A stretch of 32,774 nt of DNA, from NCBI GenBank assembly GCA_016763155.1, contig JAESUH010000187.1, positions 1-32,774 on the forward strand. Reading direction: 5' to 3'. How positions within the stretch are numbered: the stretch's first letter is position 1; each line of letters opens with the position of its first letter. The notes under the pieces were generated by a model. The model worked only from the letters and a program-made list of their open reading frames with translations. It searched no databases and was not told where the DNA came from. Both the position numbers and the translations under genes were made by a program. Source of the stretch: Rhizobiaceae bacterium. GTDB lineage: Bacteria > Pseudomonadota > Alphaproteobacteria > Rhizobiales > Rhizobiaceae. This document shows, piece after piece, positions 3,460 to 23,690 of this stretch.

Positions 3460-4299
3460 TTAAAGCTGAATAACATCGCCCTCGCGGGCGACTCCGCTCT
3501 TGGGTTGGGTCTTTTTGATTTCGGCTTCAATCAGGTCCAGTTCGCTATCAACGCGAAATGGCATGTGATGATAAGCAAGATAGGCACCGGCATTGGCCAG
3601 TTTGCAAAGGCGCATGCCTTCTTCAAAGGTTGAGTGCCCATAACCGACAAAATCGGGAAATTCTTCATCCGTCAGGCTGCTGTCGTAGATGAATAAATCC
3701 ACATCCTGGATCAGCTTGATGATATCTTGATTAACCTCACCGGGGATGCTCTCTGTATCGGTCACATAGGCAAAGGAGCGCCCGTCAAAATCCACTCGGT
3801 AGGCGGTTGCTCCGCCGGGGTGATTGAGCGGTGCTGTGGTGATTCTGATTTCAGGTGTGAGATCAAATGCTGCCCATCGAGGGACATGGAGATATTCCAC
3901 ATCAGCTGTAAATACACTTGGTCCGACCGGGAAATAGGGAGGCCGCATTAATTCTTCCACAGTCTCCCTTGTGGAGCTGCTACCTTCAAGCGTGCCGCAC
4001 CAAACCTGAACGTTGAATTTGTCGCAAAAGAAGGGTGCAAAGAACGGGATGCCTTCCATGTGATCGTAATGGGCGTGGGATAAAAACAGATCAATGTTTC
4101 CCTTTCCAACGCCATTGCAAATCTTGCTGCCTAATTCGCGAATGCCTGTTCCTGCATCAAATATAATCGTATGGCCACCGCAGTTGAGTTCCGTGCAATT
4201 GGTATTGCCACCTGTGCGAAGATAAAGCTCTCCGGGTGCAGGAAGGGTGCCGCGTGTTCCCCAAAAAGTAATTGAAAATTCTTTTTTTGCTTTGGTCAA
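3460..4299 (-). CDS. Metallo-beta-lactamase-fold hydrolase, PhnP/RNase Z-like group
   Basis: This 279-residue protein has the binuclear-metal signature HAHYDH at residues 75-80, preceded by the strand IIFDAGTGIRELG. Further likely ligands follow: a His in LNHPGG, an Asp in YVTDTES, and late His residues in GHST and YHHMPF. The opening FWGTRGTLPAP is typical of MBL proteins that cleave phosphodiester bonds, such as phosphoribosyl cyclic phosphodiesterases and RNase Z relatives. There is no signal peptide, so it is cytoplasmic. It is the last gene of the minus-strand cluster, 50 bases after the cyclic-nucleotide-binding gene. A cyclic-nucleotide phosphodiesterase role would suit the neighbours, since some class II cAMP phosphodiesterases have this fold, but the sequence alone does not show the substrate. 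It converges with nlpD with an 18-base gap. Confidence 0.85.
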   Translation of the reverse strand: MTKAKKEFSITFWGTRGTLPAPGELYLRTGGNTNCTELNCGGHTIIFDAGTGIRELGSKICNGVGKGNIDLFLSHAHYDHMEGIPFFAPFFCDKFNVQVWCGTLEGSSSTRETVEELMRPPYFPVGPSVFTADVEYLHVPRWAAFDLTPEIRITTAPLNHPGGATAYRVDFDGRSFAYVTDTESIPGEVNQDIIKLIQDVDLFIYDSSLTDEEFPDFVGYGHSTFEEGMRLCKLANAGAYLAYHHMPFRVDSELDLIEAEIKKTQPKSGVAREGDVIQL

Positions 4300-4349
4300 T
4301 TGTCTCTAGCCTTTGGTCGCGCGTCCAATTGCGGGTAATTTTATCTGGA

Positions 4350-4817
4350 TTAGCTTGATTGCGATTTCAGTTGTTGGCGTGCTTCACTGAGTTCTGCTGT
4401 GGTTTTACTCAGGCGCAGAGCAAGTTCACGCATTACTTCGATGCCCAGTTGCGGTGCGTCTTCAATCAGCCCCAGGAAGTGTTCTTTCTTGATTTTCAAT
4501 GTATCAAGCTCTCCCTCGGCTTTAATTGTCGCGGTCCTTGGCATGTCGCACAAAATTGCAATCTCGCCAATAAAATCATTCTCTGACAGTTTTGCAACCG
4601 ATACATCATTTCCCCCAATTGAAACGATAACATCTGCAATGCCGGATACAACAACATAGGCAGCGTCTCCCACATCTCCTTGCTTGAAAACAGTCTGTCC
4701 ATCGTGGAATACCTGACGGTCTGACGCAAAGGCAAGAAGTTTCAACTTGCCCGGATCGATGGCTGAAAACAAGGGTATCCTTCGCAGTAGAGTGACTTCA
4801 TCTTCAAGCGTGGACAT
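4350..4817 (-). CDS. Stand-alone cyclic nucleotide-binding domain protein
   Basis: This 155-residue protein is almost entirely one CNB (Crp-type) domain. It begins with RRIPLFSAIDPGKLKLLA, contains the beta-roll glycine segment FKQGDVGDAAYVV, and has a phosphate-binding cassette at residues 83-97 (FIGEIAILCDMPRTA). The Gly-Glu and the Arg that hold the cyclic phosphate and ribose (E85 and R94) are present, so it looks able to bind cAMP or cGMP. Unlike Crp/Fnr regulators it has no helix-turn-helix after the beta-roll; a charged, probably coiled helix ends the chain. It is therefore a receptor or regulatory subunit rather than a transcription factor. It lies 71 bases after the ABC-like gene and 50 before the MBL gene, in a cluster that also encodes a cyclase. 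Confidence 0.9.
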   Translation of the reverse strand: MSTLEDEVTLLRRIPLFSAIDPGKLKLLAFASDRQVFHDGQTVFKQGDVGDAAYVVVSGIADVIVSIGGNDVSVAKLSENDFIGEIAILCDMPRTATIKAEGELDTLKIKKEHFLGLIEDAPQLGIEVMRELALRLSKTTAELSEARQQLKSQSS

Positions 4818-4888
4818 GGGCTACTCCATTACAATTGCAACATTTGGCAAGTGATTGCCAAGAGGCGCAGAATTTCAAATGATTTCTA

Positions 4889-7672
4889 TCAGACATTCAA
4901 CAATTCCTGAAATTGAGGTTGGGATTTGTTCATGTCGTCAGGATTTCCATCTGCAATCAGCTCCCCGTCAGAAAACAACAATACCCGATCAAATAACAGG
5001 GATATCTTTGGGTTTATTGGGACCCAGATTACACCGCAAGGGTGACCATCGGTATTTCGTGCACGTTTAAGCACGTTTTCAATGATATTACGCTGGCTAC
5101 GTGAATCCAGCGAGTTCAGGGCGCGGTTTACAATTAAGAAATCAGGTTTTTTCAACAATGCGCGGGCAAGGTGCAATTTTTGGCGCTGAATTTCTGAAAG
5201 CCGTTTGCCTCCGGTCCCGATATTGAAATCAAGGCCAATGTGGAAGATATCATCAGTCAAGCCCATTTCGTCGAGCAGGGCCTTGATGGCTTCATCCACC
5301 CGCCCGCTGCCTTCGGCAACATTGGTGGCAACACGGCCAAGAAGCACGTTATCCAGCACGGAAGCGGCAGGATTATAAGATTCCGTTTCAAAAAACGCCA
5401 CAGGCGGAACTTTAAGTTTGCTAAGAATCAGACGAATGCTTTTGCGAGCCTCCAATATGCGGGCGCGCAAATCATCGGTCAGGAGACCCAGACGGTTTTT
5501 GTTTTCCGTGTAGGAAAACGGAAGTTTCATGATCAGCAGGCGGTCTTCCTTGTCAATTTTTGATATGCTCAAATTACCAATTCGGGTCAACGCAGCCTTA
5601 TATTCAGGTAAATCTTCTGCATCCATATAGTTCAATTGATCGAAGAATGGATTATCCGGTGCCAAATCTCCAAACAGATCAACGGTGGTGGCAGCAACTT
5701 CCTTACCCATCTCAAAGAGAGCATCTTCAAGATCGTTTTCAACCAGAATACTCTGGACAATCGGATTGGAGGCAAGGTTTTCCGGTTTGTAAGCTGAATC
5801 AAGTGCTGTTCCAAACAGCAGGTTTTCAGCGACGCTGGCCTGTATATTATAACTATTTGGCTCAAATGGCTCCACAAAGTCTTCAAAACCCAACTCGCTC
5901 AGGCGAGCCTTGAAACGTTTTCTGGCAATGATCAACTGATCACACAAATCGCCATATTCTGCCGGGTCGAGCGTGCCGCGCAGTCCAAATCCGCGAATAT
6001 CTTCTTCCAGTTGAACATCCACCAATATTGACCGAATTTCTTCAATCAGTTCGGAAGGGCCTTTAACGCCTGCACGATCGTAATCGACCCAGTTTGCATT
6101 GAAATCCAATTCAATATTGGCAGCGCGCCGGGTCTCTGCCAGTTGGTTCATATATAGCGCTTCTTCTGCGCCAGTGAGATCACGATCCACAATTGGTTGA
6201 TTCTTGAGCACATAAGTAAGGGCGTTCAAAATTGAAGTCTGAGGAAAGAATGTACCGCCATCCACATAGGAAATGCGCCGTCCGGTAACATATTCCGGCA
6301 GGTCATCAATGGGGGTGCCATTCACATATACCCGGCCAGAGGTGGGCTTTAGAACTCGCGCCAACACTTCTGCCATGTGATGTGAGCCACTATTGACTGC
6401 GCCAACTATTGCAAGTTGTTCGCCGATATTAATGGTTACACTGGCTTTTTCAATCAGCTTGGTCCCGGTTTCATCAGTCACGGCAAGGTTTGAGATATCA
6501 AACCCTTTTGATAATTGAGGAACGGGGCCTGTTGCCGTTATTTGTGTCTCGGGGTCTTGTAAATCGTCTGCTGCAAACTGTTCCAGGATTTGTTCATAGC
6601 GGACTTCAACCGTCAGGCGACGTTGGTCATAGTCAATCAAGCCACGAATTGGATCCGGCAAATCCTTATAGGCTGCAATCACAGCAACCAATTGCCCGAT
6701 ATCCATCGTGCCAGTGATCGCCAGATATCCGCCCACTGCATAAAACAGGAATGCAAGAAACTGGATCAGTAGGTTATTGATGAATTTGACACCAAATTTC
6801 CGTTGAAATAGTTCAAACCGGATAAAATACAACCGTCCTAATATGTCGGAAATGTTTGCCCGCTCATAATTGGTCGTGTCGTTTGTGTGGGCATCCTGAA
6901 TACCATCAACAATTTCACCCAGCCGCCCGGCAAGTTCGCGTGAGGCAATCTGGCGTTGTTTGCCCAGTTGAATTAGCCGCCTGCGCAATCGCGGAACCAG
7001 CCATGCCTGAATAACCACGATGACAAGGGTTGCAAAACCCAGCATCGTATTTTGTAGAAAAATGAATGTAAGGCCCGTAAGTGCCTGGCCACCTAAAAAT
7101 AATGGAAGCGTATAAGCATCCCCGATGAATTCACCCATCGGTTCAACTTCATCCTTGATCATGGTGGCGACTTCGGAAGATTTTGTGCGACGGAATCGGG
7201 GCAGGGGATAACGCAACACCCGATCAAATAGTTGAAAGCGCAGACGGCGCAATATGCGCTCTCCCATGCGCCCTTTAAATGTATTGATATATAATTTAAA
7301 GAGGCCGTTCGCTGCTACCAGACCCAAAAAGGTCAGGCTAAGAGCCAACAAAAACGGAATGCGTTCCAGTTCAAACCCGGAAAATAGCAGAATGGGTTCG
7401 CCCAAAATCCAGTCGGGTACCGGCAAATATGTTTGGAGAAAATGACCGACATCGTCGGGACTTTCAAACCCGAGACCCTGAATTGGGCCGTTGACTATCC
7501 TCTTTGGCAGTTCGAGAGACAAAAAATAAGTCGGCATCGAAAGCAGAATGATGATGAGCATCCAAATCTGTTCTTTGCGCGAATGCCGCCATACATATTT
7601 AAGAAGATTGGGTTCCATCGTGTCCAGACTGCTTCTCTTTGTCAGTTTTCGGATAGTTTCAAATTTTTGCAC
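4889..7672 (-). CDS. ABC-exporter-like protein with degenerate ATPase motifs and an expanded, repeated NBD
   Basis: The protein has 927 residues; a type-I exporter half with one NBD is usually near 600. Residues 30-345 form a membrane domain with several hydrophobic helices. The NBD starts near 390. Its Walker A site reads VGAVNSGSHH, with Ser at the Lys position. Its Walker B-like strand FLIVNRALNSLD lacks the Asp and the catalytic Glu, the signature is LSEIQ, and the H-loop His is absent (VIWVPINPK). ATP hydrolysis is therefore unlikely. Between Walker A (424-431) and the signature (825-829) lie about 390 residues instead of about 100. Q-loop/ENxLxG-like segments recur near 475, 607 and 765, with ARK/ARA helix segments after each. 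The start is GTG at 7672, 10 bases after the cyaC stop; ATG at 7618 is an alternative. Substrate and role are unknown. Confidence 0.85.
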   Translation of the reverse strand: MQKFETIRKLTKRSSLDTMEPNLLKYVWRHSRKEQIWMLIIILLSMPTYFLSLELPKRIVNGPIQGLGFESPDDVGHFLQTYLPVPDWILGEPILLFSGFELERIPFLLALSLTFLGLVAANGLFKLYINTFKGRMGERILRRLRFQLFDRVLRYPLPRFRRTKSSEVATMIKDEVEPMGEFIGDAYTLPLFLGGQALTGLTFIFLQNTMLGFATLVIVVIQAWLVPRLRRRLIQLGKQRQIASRELAGRLGEIVDGIQDAHTNDTTNYERANISDILGRLYFIRFELFQRKFGVKFINNLLIQFLAFLFYAVGGYLAITGTMDIGQLVAVIAAYKDLPDPIRGLIDYDQRRLTVEVRYEQILEQFAADDLQDPETQITATGPVPQLSKGFDISNLAVTDETGTKLIEKASVTINIGEQLAIVGAVNSGSHHMAEVLARVLKPTSGRVYVNGTPIDDLPEYVTGRRISYVDGGTFFPQTSILNALTYVLKNQPIVDRDLTGAEEALYMNQLAETRRAANIELDFNANWVDYDRAGVKGPSELIEEIRSILVDVQLEEDIRGFGLRGTLDPAEYGDLCDQLIIARKRFKARLSELGFEDFVEPFEPNSYNIQASVAENLLFGTALDSAYKPENLASNPIVQSILVENDLEDALFEMGKEVAATTVDLFGDLAPDNPFFDQLNYMDAEDLPEYKAALTRIGNLSISKIDKEDRLLIMKLPFSYTENKNRLGLLTDDLRARILEARKSIRLILSKLKVPPVAFFETESYNPAASVLDNVLLGRVATNVAEGSGRVDEAIKALLDEMGLTDDIFHIGLDFNIGTGGKRLSEIQRQKLHLARALLKKPDFLIVNRALNSLDSRSQRNIIENVLKRARNTDGHPCGVIWVPINPKISLLFDRVLLFSDGELIADGNPDDMNKSQPQFQELLNV

Positions 7673-7682
7673 TTAATACAAG

Positions 7683-9461
7683 TTAGGTGCTTTCCAACAA
7701 CTTTTCCAGAGTTTTCATATTTGTCATGGCTACGACTTCAATTGGCATTGTAATATTGTGGACATAGATTTCGGAGGTTTCGCCCAATTTGTCGATTGCT
7801 TCTTTGCCACCTTTAATCTGGTCCAGTTCAGCGCATTTTATCAATTCGCTGGACGCGACGATTTTGCATTGAAGTTCTTTCGTCGCGGATTCCAGACGTG
7901 CCGCAACATTTACAGTATCGCCAATCGCAGTAAGCCTGCTTGGCGTTACCTGATCGGAGGTTTTGCCAATACGCCCCACAACGGCTGTACCCACATGAAT
8001 GCCAATGCCAATCTTGATTGGTTCATCAATATGCTGGGTAAGCATCTGGCTGACCCGCTCCGTTGCGGCCTGAGCATTACAAGCTGCATAAAGTGCGTCG
8101 CGACAAGCTTGGGACGGAGAAGATGACAGGCCGAAAAGCGCCATCATTCCATCTCCCATAAATTTATCCACATAGCCGTTTTTGCCCTCAATTTCGCGGG
8201 TGATTTCATCAAAAAAGCTGTTGAGAATGAAAACGATATCATAGGGCAAGCTTTTTTCAGATATTTTGGAAAACCCGCGTATATCCAAAAATAATACGAC
8301 AATTTCGCGCTCCACCCCCCAGCCAAGCGGGTCTGTATGGCGTGAAGTGGCAACGCTGCTTTGTGTTTCAATCAATGGGCGAATTTCAATGTCTCCGCGC
8401 ACTCTTGCCTGACAAGCAAGACGAATATCTGCGTCAGCGTTTAATTTCGTGAGTAATTTGGTTTCTGATTCCGTTGGCGGGCTCAGGTTTTCTTTGCCAC
8501 TAACCACCAGGGTTCGGCAGGTCGAACATCTTGCGCGTCCTCCGCAAACAGACATGTGGGGTATTCCTGCAAGTCTGCTGACATCCAAAATAGTGGAGCC
8601 CGGCGGTGTGGATACAACACTGCCATCGCCATAGGTAACGGAGACTGAGTCGCGAAATCTGGAAATCGTATAGCGAATGAGGAGTACCAATAATATGAAC
8701 ACTGCCATGCCCATGATGTTGTTTTGGGCAAAACTTTCCCACTCAGCCAGCGTTTCGCGGATGAATTGGATGATTTCACGAATTTCCTGATCTTCGGCTG
8801 AAAGTTGTCCTCCCCCACCATTTGAACCGGATGCCGAATTCGCAATTTTTTGGGCAGCATCAGCCTGACGCCGCGCGGCTGCAATCCAGCCAGAAATAGA
8901 AATTGCCGGCACCAGCACTGTCATACTCAATAATAAGGGAAAATATTTGGTGTAATTATTACGGATGCGCAGCCAGAAATGAATTCCGAGGCAGCCATGC
9001 GTCCAAACGATCAACATCAGCGCGGTTTGTTGTAATGCGGCACCCGACCAGATGAGCGATAATTCCTGAGAATAATTGACATCGATACCAAGTTCCACCT
9101 CCGCCCAGCGCGCGTAGACCAGATGGGACGCAAGCCAGAATGGTATTGAGAGCCCCAGTAGAATTTGCGCCCATTCCCATGCGGGTAGGCGGTAGGTGTT
9201 TAAGGTTGCAACCCGCCATAGGCCTAACCCGGCATGAACACTCAGGGCGCCGTATAAAACAAAGATGCCCACATAGGATTGCCAAATCGTTGCTTGCCAA
9301 ACCAGAACAGTTTCCATCGCAGCAATTGAAACATGGCCAAGTGCATGATTGAGGAAATGTAAGGTGACATAAAACATCAGCACCAGACCGCTAAACAGCC
9401 GCGCGCGCTGTAGGGCTGAGCCTCTTCCGGTCAGGTCTATGGTATCAAGACTGTTTGCCAC
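7683..9461 (-). CDS. cyaC: Membrane adenylate cyclase with heme-anchor-like helices and a 2Fe-2S domain (CyaC type)
   Basis: This is a 592-residue, three-part protein. Residues 20-195 hold about five to six hydrophobic helices with buried histidines (H35, H39, H76, H113, H155, H161), resembling the diheme b anchor of succinate dehydrogenase. One more helix lies at about 248-266. Residues 272-365 are a plant-type ferredoxin domain with cysteines C306, C312, C315 and C350 for a 2Fe-2S cluster. Residues 383-565 are a class III cyclase domain with metal-binding D393 and D437, purine-selecting K433 and T511, and transition-state N518 and R522, all as expected for a class IIIb adenylate cyclase. 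S. meliloti CyaC is known as a redox- and quinone-responsive cyclase with a diheme b anchor, so redox control of cAMP synthesis is the likely role. The start is GTG at 9461 with no clear Shine-Dalgarno site. It leads the minus-strand cluster. Confidence 0.9.
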   Translation of the reverse strand: MANSLDTIDLTGRGSALQRARLFSGLVLMFYVTLHFLNHALGHVSIAAMETVLVWQATIWQSYVGIFVLYGALSVHAGLGLWRVATLNTYRLPAWEWAQILLGLSIPFWLASHLVYARWAEVELGIDVNYSQELSLIWSGAALQQTALMLIVWTHGCLGIHFWLRIRNNYTKYFPLLLSMTVLVPAISISGWIAAARRQADAAQKIANSASGSNGGGGQLSAEDQEIREIIQFIRETLAEWESFAQNNIMGMAVFILLVLLIRYTISRFRDSVSVTYGDGSVVSTPPGSTILDVSRLAGIPHMSVCGGRARCSTCRTLVVSGKENLSPPTESETKLLTKLNADADIRLACQARVRGDIEIRPLIETQSSVATSRHTDPLGWGVEREIVVLFLDIRGFSKISEKSLPYDIVFILNSFFDEITREIEGKNGYVDKFMGDGMMALFGLSSSPSQACRDALYAACNAQAATERVSQMLTQHIDEPIKIGIGIHVGTAVVGRIGKTSDQVTPSRLTAIGDTVNVAARLESATKELQCKIVASSELIKCAELDQIKGGKEAIDKLGETSEIYVHNITMPIEVVAMTNMKTLEKLLEST

Positions 9462-9698
9462 TGTGTGGGAACTTTCATATTGGCAATTGAATGATTATGT
9501 TACGTGTAACTGGACTAAAAATTTACGGCAATTAGGCTAATATGTAACTGTAATATAGCCATTTTCTACTAACCTTTGAAAGCAAATGTTGAATTTTGCA
9601 TCCACACACCACATCTGATGGTGCTATAACCGGTTTCAAGATTTTTAGACTTTAGACCCGTTTATCTGAAAAATATTCAACATTTTGAATGGAACAAC
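9462..9698. promoter_or_regulatory. Divergent control region between cyaC and the second cyclase
   Basis: This 237-base AT-rich gap must hold the promoters of two divergent cyclase genes. Visible elements are: an inverted repeat GTTAC-GT-GTAAC at 9499-9510; a recurrence of TGTAACTG at 9506-9513 (one mismatch, G) and 9543-9550; an extended -10-like TGCTATAAC at 9622-9630 pointing to the plus-strand gene, without a good -35; a tandem TTTAGAC pair at 9644-9657; and an 11-bp inverted match between 9584-9594 and 9675-9685. A weak GGAA ribosome site lies before the ATG at 9699. No open reading frame of note is present. Confidence 0.45.
9499..9510. repeat. Inverted repeat GTTAC-GT-GTAAC, possible operator
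   Basis: Two perfect 5-base arms with a 2-base spacer lie 38 bases upstream of the cyaC GTG start. A related half-site, TGTAACTG, recurs at 9543-9550. The position, next to one cyclase promoter and between two divergent cyclase genes, would suit a transcription-factor site. Arms this short could arise by chance, and the binding protein is unknown. Confidence 0.3.
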
Positions 9699-10937
9699 AT
9701 GTCTCAAGACGCACTTCTAACGCCTATTCGGGAATGGTTGATCGACCAGTCTTTGGGTGATTCTGACATTGTTTCTCTATTTGAGACCCTATGTCTGCGC
9801 CTTACTGCGATTGGAATTCCCATTGTACGCGGCAGGCTTATTTGGTCTACGCTTCACCCACTGTTTCAGGCTGAAACAGTGATGTGGGATCGTGGAAAAC
9901 CTGCGGTTCTCGAACAATTTGTTCATCAGGATGAAGAGACCAGCACATGGTCACGCAGCCCGATGAAATACGTTATCGAAAATGAGATTGAAGTATTTCA
10001 GCGCAGGCTGGACGGTCCGAATGAGCTGCTTGACTATGACATGCTTCATGATTTGAAAAAGCAAGGCGTCACGGATTATCTTGTTTTGGCAACCAAGCTT
10101 GAAACGCCGCACACCAGAAGGCAAAATCAAACAGGTGCGCGTGGGATAATTGTGACCTGGGCCACCGACCGTCCATCAGGGTTTTCCGCAGATGATCTGA
10201 ACTCACTACAACAAATCCAGAAACGATTTGCTGTCGCATGTAAAACCCTTGTCCAGTCGCGTGTTTCAAAAAACATTACCCGAACTTATCTTGGCGATCG
10301 GGCCGGGCAAAGTGTGTTGGATGGGCAAATTCGCCTAGGTGACGGGCAAAAAACCAAGGCAGTGGTTTGGTTTTCTGATCTTCGCGGCTCCACAAGTCAT
10401 GCGGAAACAATGGAATCAGATGCCTATTTCAATATGCTCAATAGCTATTTTGAAACCACCGCTGGAAGCGTTGTGAATAATGGTGGAGAGGTGCTGGATT
10501 TCATCGGAGACGGTGTCCTGGGTATTTTTCCTTATGACAGTGATGAGGATCTGCCTGTGGCTGCAAATCAAGCCCATTTGGCGCTGGATCAGACAATCGC
10601 CCGGGCAAATGATGTGAATGCCGAGCGTCAATCTGCAGGTCTGCAACGCTATAAGTTTGGTGTGGGGCTGAATGTGGGAGAAGTCATGTTCGGCAATATT
10701 GGCATTCCTGAGCGCTTGTCGTTTTCTGTGATTGGCCCTTCTGTCAATGAAGTGTCCAGAATTGAACAAATGACTAAATTCCTGCAAAAGCCTGTTCTGG
10801 CTGGCAAAAAACTAGCTTCTCTTGCTCCAAAACGTTGGCAATCTGTGGGACCCCATAAATTGGAAGGGGTGCTTGAGCCAGTGGAACTGTTTAGCTTTAA
10901 ATGTGCGGCCAATGAATGCAGTTCCTCGCTCTTATAG
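9699..10937 (+). CDS. Soluble class III adenylate/guanylate cyclase with altered substrate-selecting residue
   Basis: This 412-residue protein shows no membrane helices. Residues 1-190 form an N-terminal domain with a sensor-like look (RLIWSTLHPLFQAET, then a strand-rich stretch) found in rhizobial cyclases; a GAF-like fold is possible but not proven. Residues 218-400 are the class III catalytic domain. Metal ligands D227 (FSDLRGST) and D271 (FIGDG) and the catalytic N350 and R354 are present. At the position that normally carries the purine-selecting Lys, this protein has Asp (D267, in EVLDFIGDG), and the partner position has Ser (S343). This could lower activity or change the nucleotide used. 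It is divergently transcribed from cyaC across a 237-base gap, so the two cyclases may be co-regulated. Confidence 0.88.
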   Translation: MSQDALLTPIREWLIDQSLGDSDIVSLFETLCLRLTAIGIPIVRGRLIWSTLHPLFQAETVMWDRGKPAVLEQFVHQDEETSTWSRSPMKYVIENEIEVFQRRLDGPNELLDYDMLHDLKKQGVTDYLVLATKLETPHTRRQNQTGARGIIVTWATDRPSGFSADDLNSLQQIQKRFAVACKTLVQSRVSKNITRTYLGDRAGQSVLDGQIRLGDGQKTKAVVWFSDLRGSTSHAETMESDAYFNMLNSYFETTAGSVVNNGGEVLDFIGDGVLGIFPYDSDEDLPVAANQAHLALDQTIARANDVNAERQSAGLQRYKFGVGLNVGEVMFGNIGIPERLSFSVIGPSVNEVSRIEQMTKFLQKPVLAGKKLASLAPKRWQSVGPHKLEGVLEPVELFSFKCAANECSSSLL

Positions 10938-11048
10938 CGTTGGATTGCTTTTCAAACAGGCGATCACGCTTTGTTTAATGGCGGAAATTTGGCAACCAAA
11001 CTAGATTTCCGTCTTGAAACACTATTTGGACAAGGCGTTAAAACCTAT

Positions 11049-11444
11049 ATGAATACCAACTTAATAATTCGCCTGCTGGTTGCTGCGGCCTGCATATATT
11101 TGCTGGAGGTCTCAGGCTTTTGGGTCTGGCTGGTAGCCCATCCGTTCTGGAGCTTTAAGGGCGTATTAATCGGTATTGCTGCCGGGATTGGTATTTTGCT
11201 CGTCGCCAAGTTGATTTTCAGATACAAGACAGGAAACAGAACCCTGACTCTGGGTCTGTTATTGCTGGCAGTCATCATTGCAGCAGCAGGAACATTTTAC
11301 GGAAAATCAGGCTTTGCCGCATCTTTTGGTGAAAACCGGACCGCCGGAGTATTTTGGTATTACGGCTATTTGGCCCTTACCACGGCAAGTTTCATGACGA
11401 TTTTTGAACTTTCCGGGTACATATTTGGTCAAAAATCACGCTGA
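11049..11444 (+). CDS. Small four-helix membrane protein of unknown function
   Basis: From the ATG at 11049 the product has 131 residues; the frame is open to 10971, but the upstream part has no plausible membrane start. Four hydrophobic stretches are visible: near residues 5-30 (VAAACIYLLEVSGFWVWLV), 35-56, 68-86 and 100-122, joined by short basic loops such as FRYKTGNR. There are no Cys pairs or known catalytic motifs. I do not recognise the family. It follows the second cyclase by 111 bases on the same strand, so co-transcription is possible but not shown. The ribosome site is weak (an AAGG about 14 bases upstream). Length, hydrophobicity and orderly topology support a real inner-membrane protein. 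Confidence 0.65.
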   Translation: MNTNLIIRLLVAAACIYLLEVSGFWVWLVAHPFWSFKGVLIGIAAGIGILLVAKLIFRYKTGNRTLTLGLLLLAVIIAAAGTFYGKSGFAASFGENRTAGVFWYYGYLALTTASFMTIFELSGYIFGQKSR

Positions 11445-11514: not shown

Positions 11515-11588
11515 TGGAGGCCTCGCCCGGAATCGAACCGGGGTGCAAGGATTTGCAATCCTCTGCGTAACCATTCCCCAACGATGCC
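11515..11588 (-). tRNA. tRNA-Cys(GCA)-like gene, diverged copy, possibly a pseudogene
   Basis: Read on the minus strand this is a full 74-base cloverleaf with CCA encoded, anticodon GCA and discriminator U. It differs from the intact tRNA-Cys at 12735-12808 at six sites, five of them in the 5' part: gene positions 4, 9, 11, 15, 24 and 42. The change at position 4 makes an A-G mismatch in the acceptor stem, the change at 11 makes a G-G mismatch in the D stem, and the change at 42 leaves a G-U closing pair in the anticodon stem. The last 32 bases are identical to the intact copy. Two uncompensated mismatches suggest a decaying duplicate, though weak function is not excluded. Confidence 0.8.
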
Positions 11589-12734: not shown

Positions 12735-12808
12735 GGCCTCGTGGCGGAGTGGTTACGTAGAGGATTGCAAATCCTCGCACCCCGGTTCGATTCCGGGCGA
12801 GGCCTCCA
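12735..12808 (+). tRNA. tRNA-Cys(GCA), intact copy
   Basis: This 74-base gene has acceptor strands GGCCTCG and CGAGGCC that pair perfectly, discriminator U as required for cysteine identity, and an encoded CCA. The anticodon stem-loop is GAGGA-TTGCAAA-TCCTC with anticodon GCA, and the T arm is CCCGG-TTCGATT-CCGGG. This is the likely functional tRNA-Cys; a diverged copy in the opposite orientation lies at 11515-11588. No clear promoter hexamers were found directly upstream. Confidence 0.96.
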
Positions 12809-23285: not shown

Positions 23286-23690
23286 ATGCAATTCACCTGG
23301 CTTGAAGAAATTGAACAGACCCGCCTTCAGGAGCTTTTCGAATTCTACAAAGAAGAGTGGTGGACAAAAGAGCGTTCCTTTCAGCAGGTAGTTCAAATGC
23401 TGGAAGGCAGCGATGTGATTATCGGCTGTTGCTCTTCGGATAACAAACTTATCGGATTTGCCCGCGTTCTAACCGATTTTACCTTCAAGGCGATGATCTT
23501 TGATGTGATCGTTCGTGAAGAGTTTCGTGGAAACCAGATTGGTTCTGCAATTATCAATCATATCTTCTCGCTGGATATTCTCAAGGACGTAACCAGCTTT
23601 GAACTGTATTGTCCCGACAGGCTAACGCCGTTTTATGAAAAACTGGGCTTTAACAAGGGCAGTGCAAACATATTATTCAAGGAACGGTAG
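23286..23690 (+). CDS. GNAT-family N-acetyltransferase
   Basis: This 134-residue protein has a compact GNAT fold. Strands 2-3 are in VIIGCCSSDNKLIGFARVLTDF. The acetyl-CoA pyrophosphate-binding loop is VREEFRGNQIGSAIINHIF, near residues 78-96, matching the R/Q-x-x-G-x-G/A motif. A late FYEKLGF segment is typical of strand 6-7 in the family. It should acetylate a small amine or a protein N-terminus, but nothing visible defines the substrate. It starts 22 bases after the glmS stop on the same strand and may be co-expressed with it. Confidence 0.85.
   Translation: MQFTWLEEIEQTRLQELFEFYKEEWWTKERSFQQVVQMLEGSDVIIGCCSSDNKLIGFARVLTDFTFKAMIFDVIVREEFRGNQIGSAIINHIFSLDILKDVTSFELYCPDRLTPFYEKLGFNKGSANILFKER

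Follow-up and report, generated by a model that had tools for sequence, protein, structure and literature searches.

A 32,774-nucleotide stretch of DNA from a Rhizobiaceae bacterium (the window; contig JAESUH010000187.1 of GenBank assembly GCA_016763155.1, which is 3.99 Mb in size and 85% complete) carries a minus-strand cluster of four genes centered on a pseudo-ATP-binding cassette (ABC) exporter-like membrane protein, pABC, and a small cyclic-nucleotide-binding protein, CNB. In the direction of transcription, the cluster comprises CYC (positions 7683–9461, 592 amino acids), a CyaC-type redox adenylate cyclase with a membrane anchor bearing heme-ligand-type histidines, a [2Fe-2S] domain, and a class III cyclase domain; pABC (4889–7672, 927 amino acids as called); CNB (4350–4817, 155 amino acids), a stand-alone protein with PF00027 (3.5e-19) as its sole domain; and MBL (3460–4299, 279 amino acids), an MBL-fold metallo-hydrolase of the RNaseZ/PhnP-like branch (PF12706, 2e-20). 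A first-pass annotation of this DNA had described the four genes with gaps of 10, 71, and 50 bases, which is what the longest open reading frames give, and its domain content agrees with Pfam: MBL, a single PF00027, PF00664 with a weak and split PF00005, and Fer2 with Guanylate_cyc. The reading frame of pABC has probably been called too long, since alignments to homologues begin at residue 14–19, in only a few cases before it, and an ATG codon encodes residue 19 (position 7618). With this start, the protein has 909 amino acids, and the 10-base gap between CYC and pABC, correct for the longest frame, probably widens to ∼64 bases. The first-pass annotation did not include CYC2 (9699–10,937, plus strand, 412 amino acids), a second class III cyclase (PF00211) with an alpha/beta N-terminal domain, which is divergent from the four-gene cluster and is a recurrent partner.

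The linkage of pABC and CNB was followed in 96 non-duplicate loci from Hyphomicrobiales and in a class-wide set of 56 alphaproteobacterial loci, mostly one per family. In 95 of the 96 Hyphomicrobiales loci, pABC is followed directly by CNB, and the exception is situated on a 7.2 kb contig. In the class-wide set, CNB adjoins pABC in 48 loci and is fused to the pABC C-terminus in another 6, together 54/56. By Pfam, such fusions were identified in Azospirillum (L128) and Sulfitobacter (L129), and also in a Hyphomicrobiales metagenome-assembled genome (L044). The association exceeds chance, and the pair is the near-invariant core of the locus. That genes which are neighbors elsewhere have become fused argues strongly for the two proteins working as a unit, and it lends good support to the earlier suggestion that pABC serves as an effector or platform. 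Of 387 alphaproteobacterial genomes, 148 have a match to pABC, among them Sinorhizobium meliloti and many Rhizobium species, which places the pair in over a third of those sampled from this class; in a phylum-wide sample of 397 genomes, all 35 pABC matches fall in Alphaproteobacteria. A PubMed Central literature search retrieved no paper describing a pseudo-ABC/CNB family. In the pSymB record of S. meliloti 1021 (L138, ∼36127–36200 and 23337–23370), the pABC and CYC2-type genes are each split between frames; both are intact in S. meliloti strain R14 (L127), and the split in 1021 is either a strain difference or a sequencing artefact.

The AlphaFold2 model of pABC (pLDDT 80, pTM 0.70) matches B-type exporters along its whole length (TM287/288, TmrAB, MsbA, and PCAT1; Z 28–29, VIA-align). 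A type IV exporter transmembrane domain with conserved coupling regions (PF00664, 4.9e-19) occupies residues ∼19–365 (positions 6578–7618), and the C-terminal half superposes on the nucleotide-binding domain (NBD) of ComA (3vx4; Z 30.1, rmsd 1.9, 239 residues, VIA-align). Because these 239 residues are scattered across residues 385–926 of the model (positions 4895–6520), the core of the pseudo-NBD is split by an insert of ∼250 residues. This insert (residues ∼511–757, positions 5402–6142) is helical and contains an extra SVxENLLFG motif. Ordinary NBDs have one S-x-x-[ED]-N-[LV]-L-[FL]-G-like segment, located after the Q-loop; pABC has three (near residues 472, 605, and 764). Relatives share 44 to 84% identity over the full length, with the transmembrane domain and coupling regions strongly conserved. 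No Pfam match to a C39 peptidase domain was obtained for pABC or its fused homologues.

In comparison with an active, MsbA-like type IV ABC exporter, pABC has the transmembrane domain and the NBD fold and lacks the canonical Walker A, Walker B, LSGGQ, and switch histidine. In the window protein, GAVNSGSH stands in place of the Walker A consensus GxxxxGK[ST] (residues 424–431, positions 6380–6403), FLIVNR in place of the Walker B hhhhDE (residues 845–850, positions 5123–5140), and LSEIQ in place of the LSGGQ signature, and there is no histidine at residue 886. Among the 96 Hyphomicrobiales proteins, the Walker A lysine is absent from every one, the residue following it is acidic in 86, the Walker B aspartate has become asparagine in 95, and the adjoining glutamate has become arginine in 84 (N849 and R850 in the window); the switch histidine is lost in members from this order. 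In the alignment taken beyond Hyphomicrobiales (57 rows, among them the window protein), the Walker A serine/threonine is acidic in 45 and the Walker B aspartate is replaced in 49. On these residue counts, almost all family members have a remodelled catalytic metal site, and in the order to which the window belongs the site is completely taken apart, with the fold kept.

The binding site of CNB is conserved. Its phosphate-binding cassette, GEIAILCDMPRTAT (residues 84–97, positions 4527–4568), is nearly invariant, and in 88 Hyphomicrobiales CNBs the pattern GE[I]A[I]L...RTAT retains G, R, A, and T in 100%, E in 98%, and the first T in 99%. Class-wide, G is present in 55 of 55 proteins, E in 52, and R in 54. 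The protein aligns with the CNB domains of PKA and PKG, and with its predicted phosphate-binding cassette intact, it looks active. Public annotation often labels homologues as “Crp/Fnr family transcriptional regulator.” An assignment of CNB as a CRP/FNR transcription factor was rejected, as the 155-residue protein contains PF00027 only and has no helix-turn-helix, in line with its first description as a receptor lacking a DNA-binding domain.

CYC has the architecture of CyaC, with the anchor histidines, ferredoxin cysteines, and catalytic residues all present, and looks active as judged from these residues. Pfam assigns Fer2 (PF00111, 1.3e-9) and Guanylate_cyc (PF00211). In 20 relatives, anchor residues H35, H39, H76, H113, and H155, which are of heme-ligand type by sequence, are invariant, as are C306, C312, C315, and C350 of the [2Fe-2S] domain and D393, K433, and D437 of the class III site; N518 and R522 are conserved at 95%, and T511 occupies by spacing the position of CyaC Thr484. 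The S. meliloti CyaC is redox/quinone-responsive by experiment (PMC10463352). In CYC2, the metal-binding Asp and the arginine are found in 17 of 17 relatives and the asparagine in 15; the canonical substrate-specifying lysine is absent, which makes its product less certain. The N-terminal domain in the AlphaFold2 model of CYC2 has its best match in a phytochrome-cyclase fusion (6fht). Proteins of ∼386 amino acids encoded in the window's genome (G000:C44:5798–6856, minus strand) and elsewhere (G089:C16:27937–28962) match CYC residues 16–367 only, that is, the anchor and Fer2, and resemble a cyclase-less CyaC-like redox protein.

Co-occurrence at the genome level was determined with 18 pABC-carrying and 23 pABC-free relatives and, class-wide, with 40 genomes of each kind. 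A full-length CyaC-type cyclase (anchor, Fer2, and cyclase) is encoded in 15/18 pABC-carrying versus 1/23 pABC-free relatives, and in 32/40 versus 1/40 genomes class-wide (p 1e-13); after small genomes were dropped, the values were 31/37 versus 1/11 (size-controlled p 1e-5). CYC2-type cyclases occur in 16/18 versus 1/23 relatives. Within the stretch around pABC (mostly 8 kb either side), CYC was found in only 3 and CYC2 in only 2 of the 56 class-wide loci. The CyaC-type gene is mostly unlinked to pABC, and the co-occurrence of the two is not explained by neighborhood. The link between cyclase and receptor proposed in the first-pass annotation is in this way supported, even where the genes lie far apart.

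The main partner of the pair lies outside the window. In Rhizobium, Phyllobacterium, S. meliloti (on pSymB), Azospirillum, and Sulfitobacter, pABC-CNB is part of a cluster that encodes glycosyltransferases together with a peptide-type ABC importer; further genes of the cluster vary and include a nucleotide-sugar dehydrogenase, a polysaccharide deacetylase, a polysaccharide lyase, DUF3095, cyclases, and MBL. The typical class-wide layout places MBL at the far end, followed by the importer genes, the deacetylase, and the glycosyltransferase genes GT28b, GT4b, GT4a, and GT28a, all divergent from pABC-CNB, and the divergent glycosyltransferase cluster adjoins pABC in ∼43 of 56 class-wide loci. GT28a is present in 17/18 pABC-carrying versus 1/23 pABC-free relatives and in 39/40 versus 1/40 genomes class-wide (p 1.5e-20; 2e-8 without genomes under 2.7 Mb), and is close to an obligate partner of pABC. 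In the genome of the window, the glycan cluster is located on contig 34 (G000:C34, L133), unlinked to the window. Directly downstream of it on contig 34 (L133:13079–16846) are genes for a branched-chain/urea-type binding protein and two permeases. A membership of SMb21196 and SMb21200 in the S. meliloti cluster was not supported; SMb21200 has been described as a sigma-54 enhancer-binding protein.

With somewhat more confidence than doubt, we read the window as carrying the regulatory half of a glycan system shared across the class Alphaproteobacteria, in which CNB would be the sensing subunit of a degenerate exporter-like pABC that gates the glycan pathway post-translationally. The putative di-heme/[2Fe-2S] anchor of CYC would read the respiratory redox state, and CYC together with the second, soluble cyclase CYC2 would make the nucleotide, most likely cyclic AMP (cAMP). 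CNB, a separate protein here and part of one polypeptide in some lineages, would sense this nucleotide for pABC, whose NBD would act as a regulatory or structural pseudo-domain in a complete ABC-exporter architecture. Control would then presumably run from nucleotide-bound CNB through a conformational change of pABC to the gating of a step in glycan assembly or export, performed with the linked glycosyltransferases, the polysaccharide deacetylase, and the peptide-type importer (on another contig in this genome). The output would be post-translational, as for cyclic di-GMP (c-di-GMP) acting via PilZ domains, and not transcriptional. The co-occurrence of pABC, CNB, the glycan set, and a redox cyclase suggests an undescribed direct cAMP switch of a surface-sugar pathway. 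Put forward tentatively, and with more doubt than trust, is the fuller version in which a protein of complete ABC-exporter shape has given up ATP hydrolysis and, gated by cAMP via CNB, acts post-translationally and with redox input as a switch for an envelope glycan shared across the class.

Several observations weigh against this assignment of the window as a cAMP-informed regulatory half. Outside Hyphomicrobiales, the Walker A lysine or an arginine is retained in 54 and the Walker B glutamate in 32 of the 57 rows (window included), and in the member L224 both Walker motifs have their canonical residues; given these retained residues, nucleotide binding and even weak hydrolysis may occur in the family. 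No recognised polymerase was found in the glycan cluster, so that the notion of export rests on the ABC fold. A CyaC-type match is missing from 7 of the 40 pABC-carrying genomes, and in one more the match lacks the cyclase domain. The co-occurrence tests ignore phylogeny, and the pABC-free genomes are smaller, which inflates the uncorrected statistics. Finally, the CNB domain of HetC from Nostoc showed in vitro binding of ppGpp but none of cAMP (PMC10986499), and by this precedent the ligand of CNB could be other than cAMP.

The first-pass annotation had itself favored a self-contained local circuit, in which the cyclase makes cAMP, CNB receives it, MBL removes it, and pABC is the effector. 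In this strict form the circuit now appears rather unlikely. What stands is the recurrence of the four gene types: throughout Hyphomicrobiales, loci combine cyclases, CNB, pABC, and MBL in varying arrangements. The precise sequence CYC-pABC-CNB-MBL is a local one, occurring in 6 of 96 loci, mostly from close relatives, which speaks against a conserved four-gene order and not against the association. Nor is the unit self-contained, given that pABC-CNB has its constant partner in the glycan cluster, which this genome encodes on contig 34. The evidence on MBL points in both directions. Its metal ligands (HxHxDH at 75–80, H160, D181, H222, and H244) are intact and invariant in 35 relatives, and it shows weak similarity to PhnP and to the cyclic-nucleotide phosphodiesterase model NF041851. 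The score against the latter, 28.2 bits, is far below the cut-off of 400, and those against the ribonuclease Z models TIGR02651 and NF000801 (60.5–61 bits) are far below the cut-offs of 293 and 252, respectively; on these scores, an identity of MBL as RNase Z was rejected, and its nearest solved structures are weak matches of the RNase Z/ELAC type. MBL accompanies pABC in 15/18 versus 1/23 relatives and in 36/40 versus 11/40 genomes class-wide (size-controlled p 4e-4), a weaker link than that of GT28a or the CyaC-type cyclase, and its presence in 11 of 40 pABC-free genomes counts against a dedicated role in the circuit. In favor of such a role, 14 genomes have MBL no more than 25 kb from pABC, compared with ∼0.7 expected. 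In 14 class-level genomes MBL forms the distal end of the glycan cluster, 14 to 20 kb from pABC, and in 5 of 14 such cluster ends examined it adjoins a cyclase domain. On the present data, MBL might either remove the nucleotide or work in the glycan pathway.

Asymmetric ABC exporters with one degenerate site exist, and structural comparison with pABC places two of them, TM287/288 and TmrAB, near the top. Accordant with these is a model in which pABC is the dead half of a heterodimeric exporter whose catalytic ABC subunit is encoded elsewhere, with CNB modulating the pair; the strong conservation of the transmembrane domain and coupling regions and the Walker A lysine kept by many class-level members fit this model as well. 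We consider it improbable, for the ABC proteins that recur in the cluster beside pABC belong to the peptide-type importer and none of them is a second exporter-type subunit, and a dead half-site usually retains Walker A and B, both of which are altered in pABC. Least probable of all is that pABC-CNB belongs with the glycan cluster as a unit while the window cyclases and MBL are there by chance or are simply common in large alphaproteobacterial genomes: cyclases are numerous in S. meliloti (28, PMC10463352), and CYC and CYC2 are rare in the vicinity of pABC, but it is the full-length CyaC type and not any cyclase that co-occurs with pABC, also after removal of small genomes, and the CYC2 type is distributed in the same one-sided manner among the relatives.

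The 237-base intergenic region between the divergent genes CYC and CYC2 (9462–9698) is a candidate divergent promoter. It contains an inverted repeat of 14 nucleotides with 93% complementarity (AAATGTTGAATTTT/AATATTCAACATTT, arms at 9584–9597 and 9672–9685), possibly a regulator site. A promoter scan of the operon gave 9 predictions versus 8.8 in shuffled sequence, which is not above expectation, and a terminator scan gave 9 versus 6.8, a small excess. Downstream of CYC2, a predicted protein of 157 amino acids (10,971–11,444, plus strand) has no Pfam or NCBIfam match and is kept only in the nearest relatives. Further along the window are two tRNA-Cys(gca) genes (11,515–11,588, minus strand, and 12,735–12,808, plus strand), ∼1.2 kb apart on opposite strands with a tRNA-Asn gene between them.

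Among known systems, the S. meliloti CyaC (SMc01818, PMC10463352) resembles CYC in its membrane anchor with heme-ligand-type histidines, its [2Fe-2S] center, and its class III cyclase, whose active site has Lys, Thr, Asn, and Arg. In contrast to the S. meliloti gene, CYC of the window is located directly upstream of pABC. The known partners of S. meliloti CyaC are the transcription factors Clr and CycR, and a CNB-pABC receptor is not reported in the literature examined; if the proposed regulatory role of the window holds, CyaC, so far paired with transcription factors, would gain a further receptor. The msbA2 operon of S. meliloti (PMC3687685), also on pSymB, combines glycosyltransferases with an MsbA-like exporter and has been proposed to export an unknown polysaccharide. 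MsbA2 was rejected as the pABC of this organism, the ChvI-bound msbA2 operon fragment lying at 938 kb of pSymB and pABC at ∼842–845 kb. The nearest precedent for a CNB domain combined with an exporter is HetC (PMC10986499), an exporter-type ABC protein that requires its attached CNB domain in order to function. The CNB domain of HetC is N-terminal, and the protein also includes a C39 peptidase and an essential catalytic ATPase residue (PMC10986499), whereas pABC has no peptidase and a degenerate NBD, and its CNB is separate or C-terminal. The sulfonylurea receptor SUR of KATP channels, a structural match to pABC, illustrates that an ABC-exporter fold may serve regulation and not transport; its sequence relationship to pABC is limited to the ABC fold, and no ion channel is present in the cluster. 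If pABC does act as a cAMP-informed gate, it would stand for a large pseudo-ABC family in which a degenerate ATPase domain is kept across an order for a non-ATPase purpose, a new use of the ABC fold. Testable questions follow as to the role of the conserved dead NBD, the glycan concerned, and whether the state of respiration acts on it via cAMP. In c-di-GMP/PilZ control, a second messenger acts post-translationally on polysaccharide synthases via a small receptor domain. In pABC-CNB, the place of PilZ is taken by a CNB domain, whose partner is ABC-like, and cAMP would by this route gain a direct, non-transcriptional output on cell-surface sugars, as a counterpart of the control exerted by c-di-GMP via PilZ.

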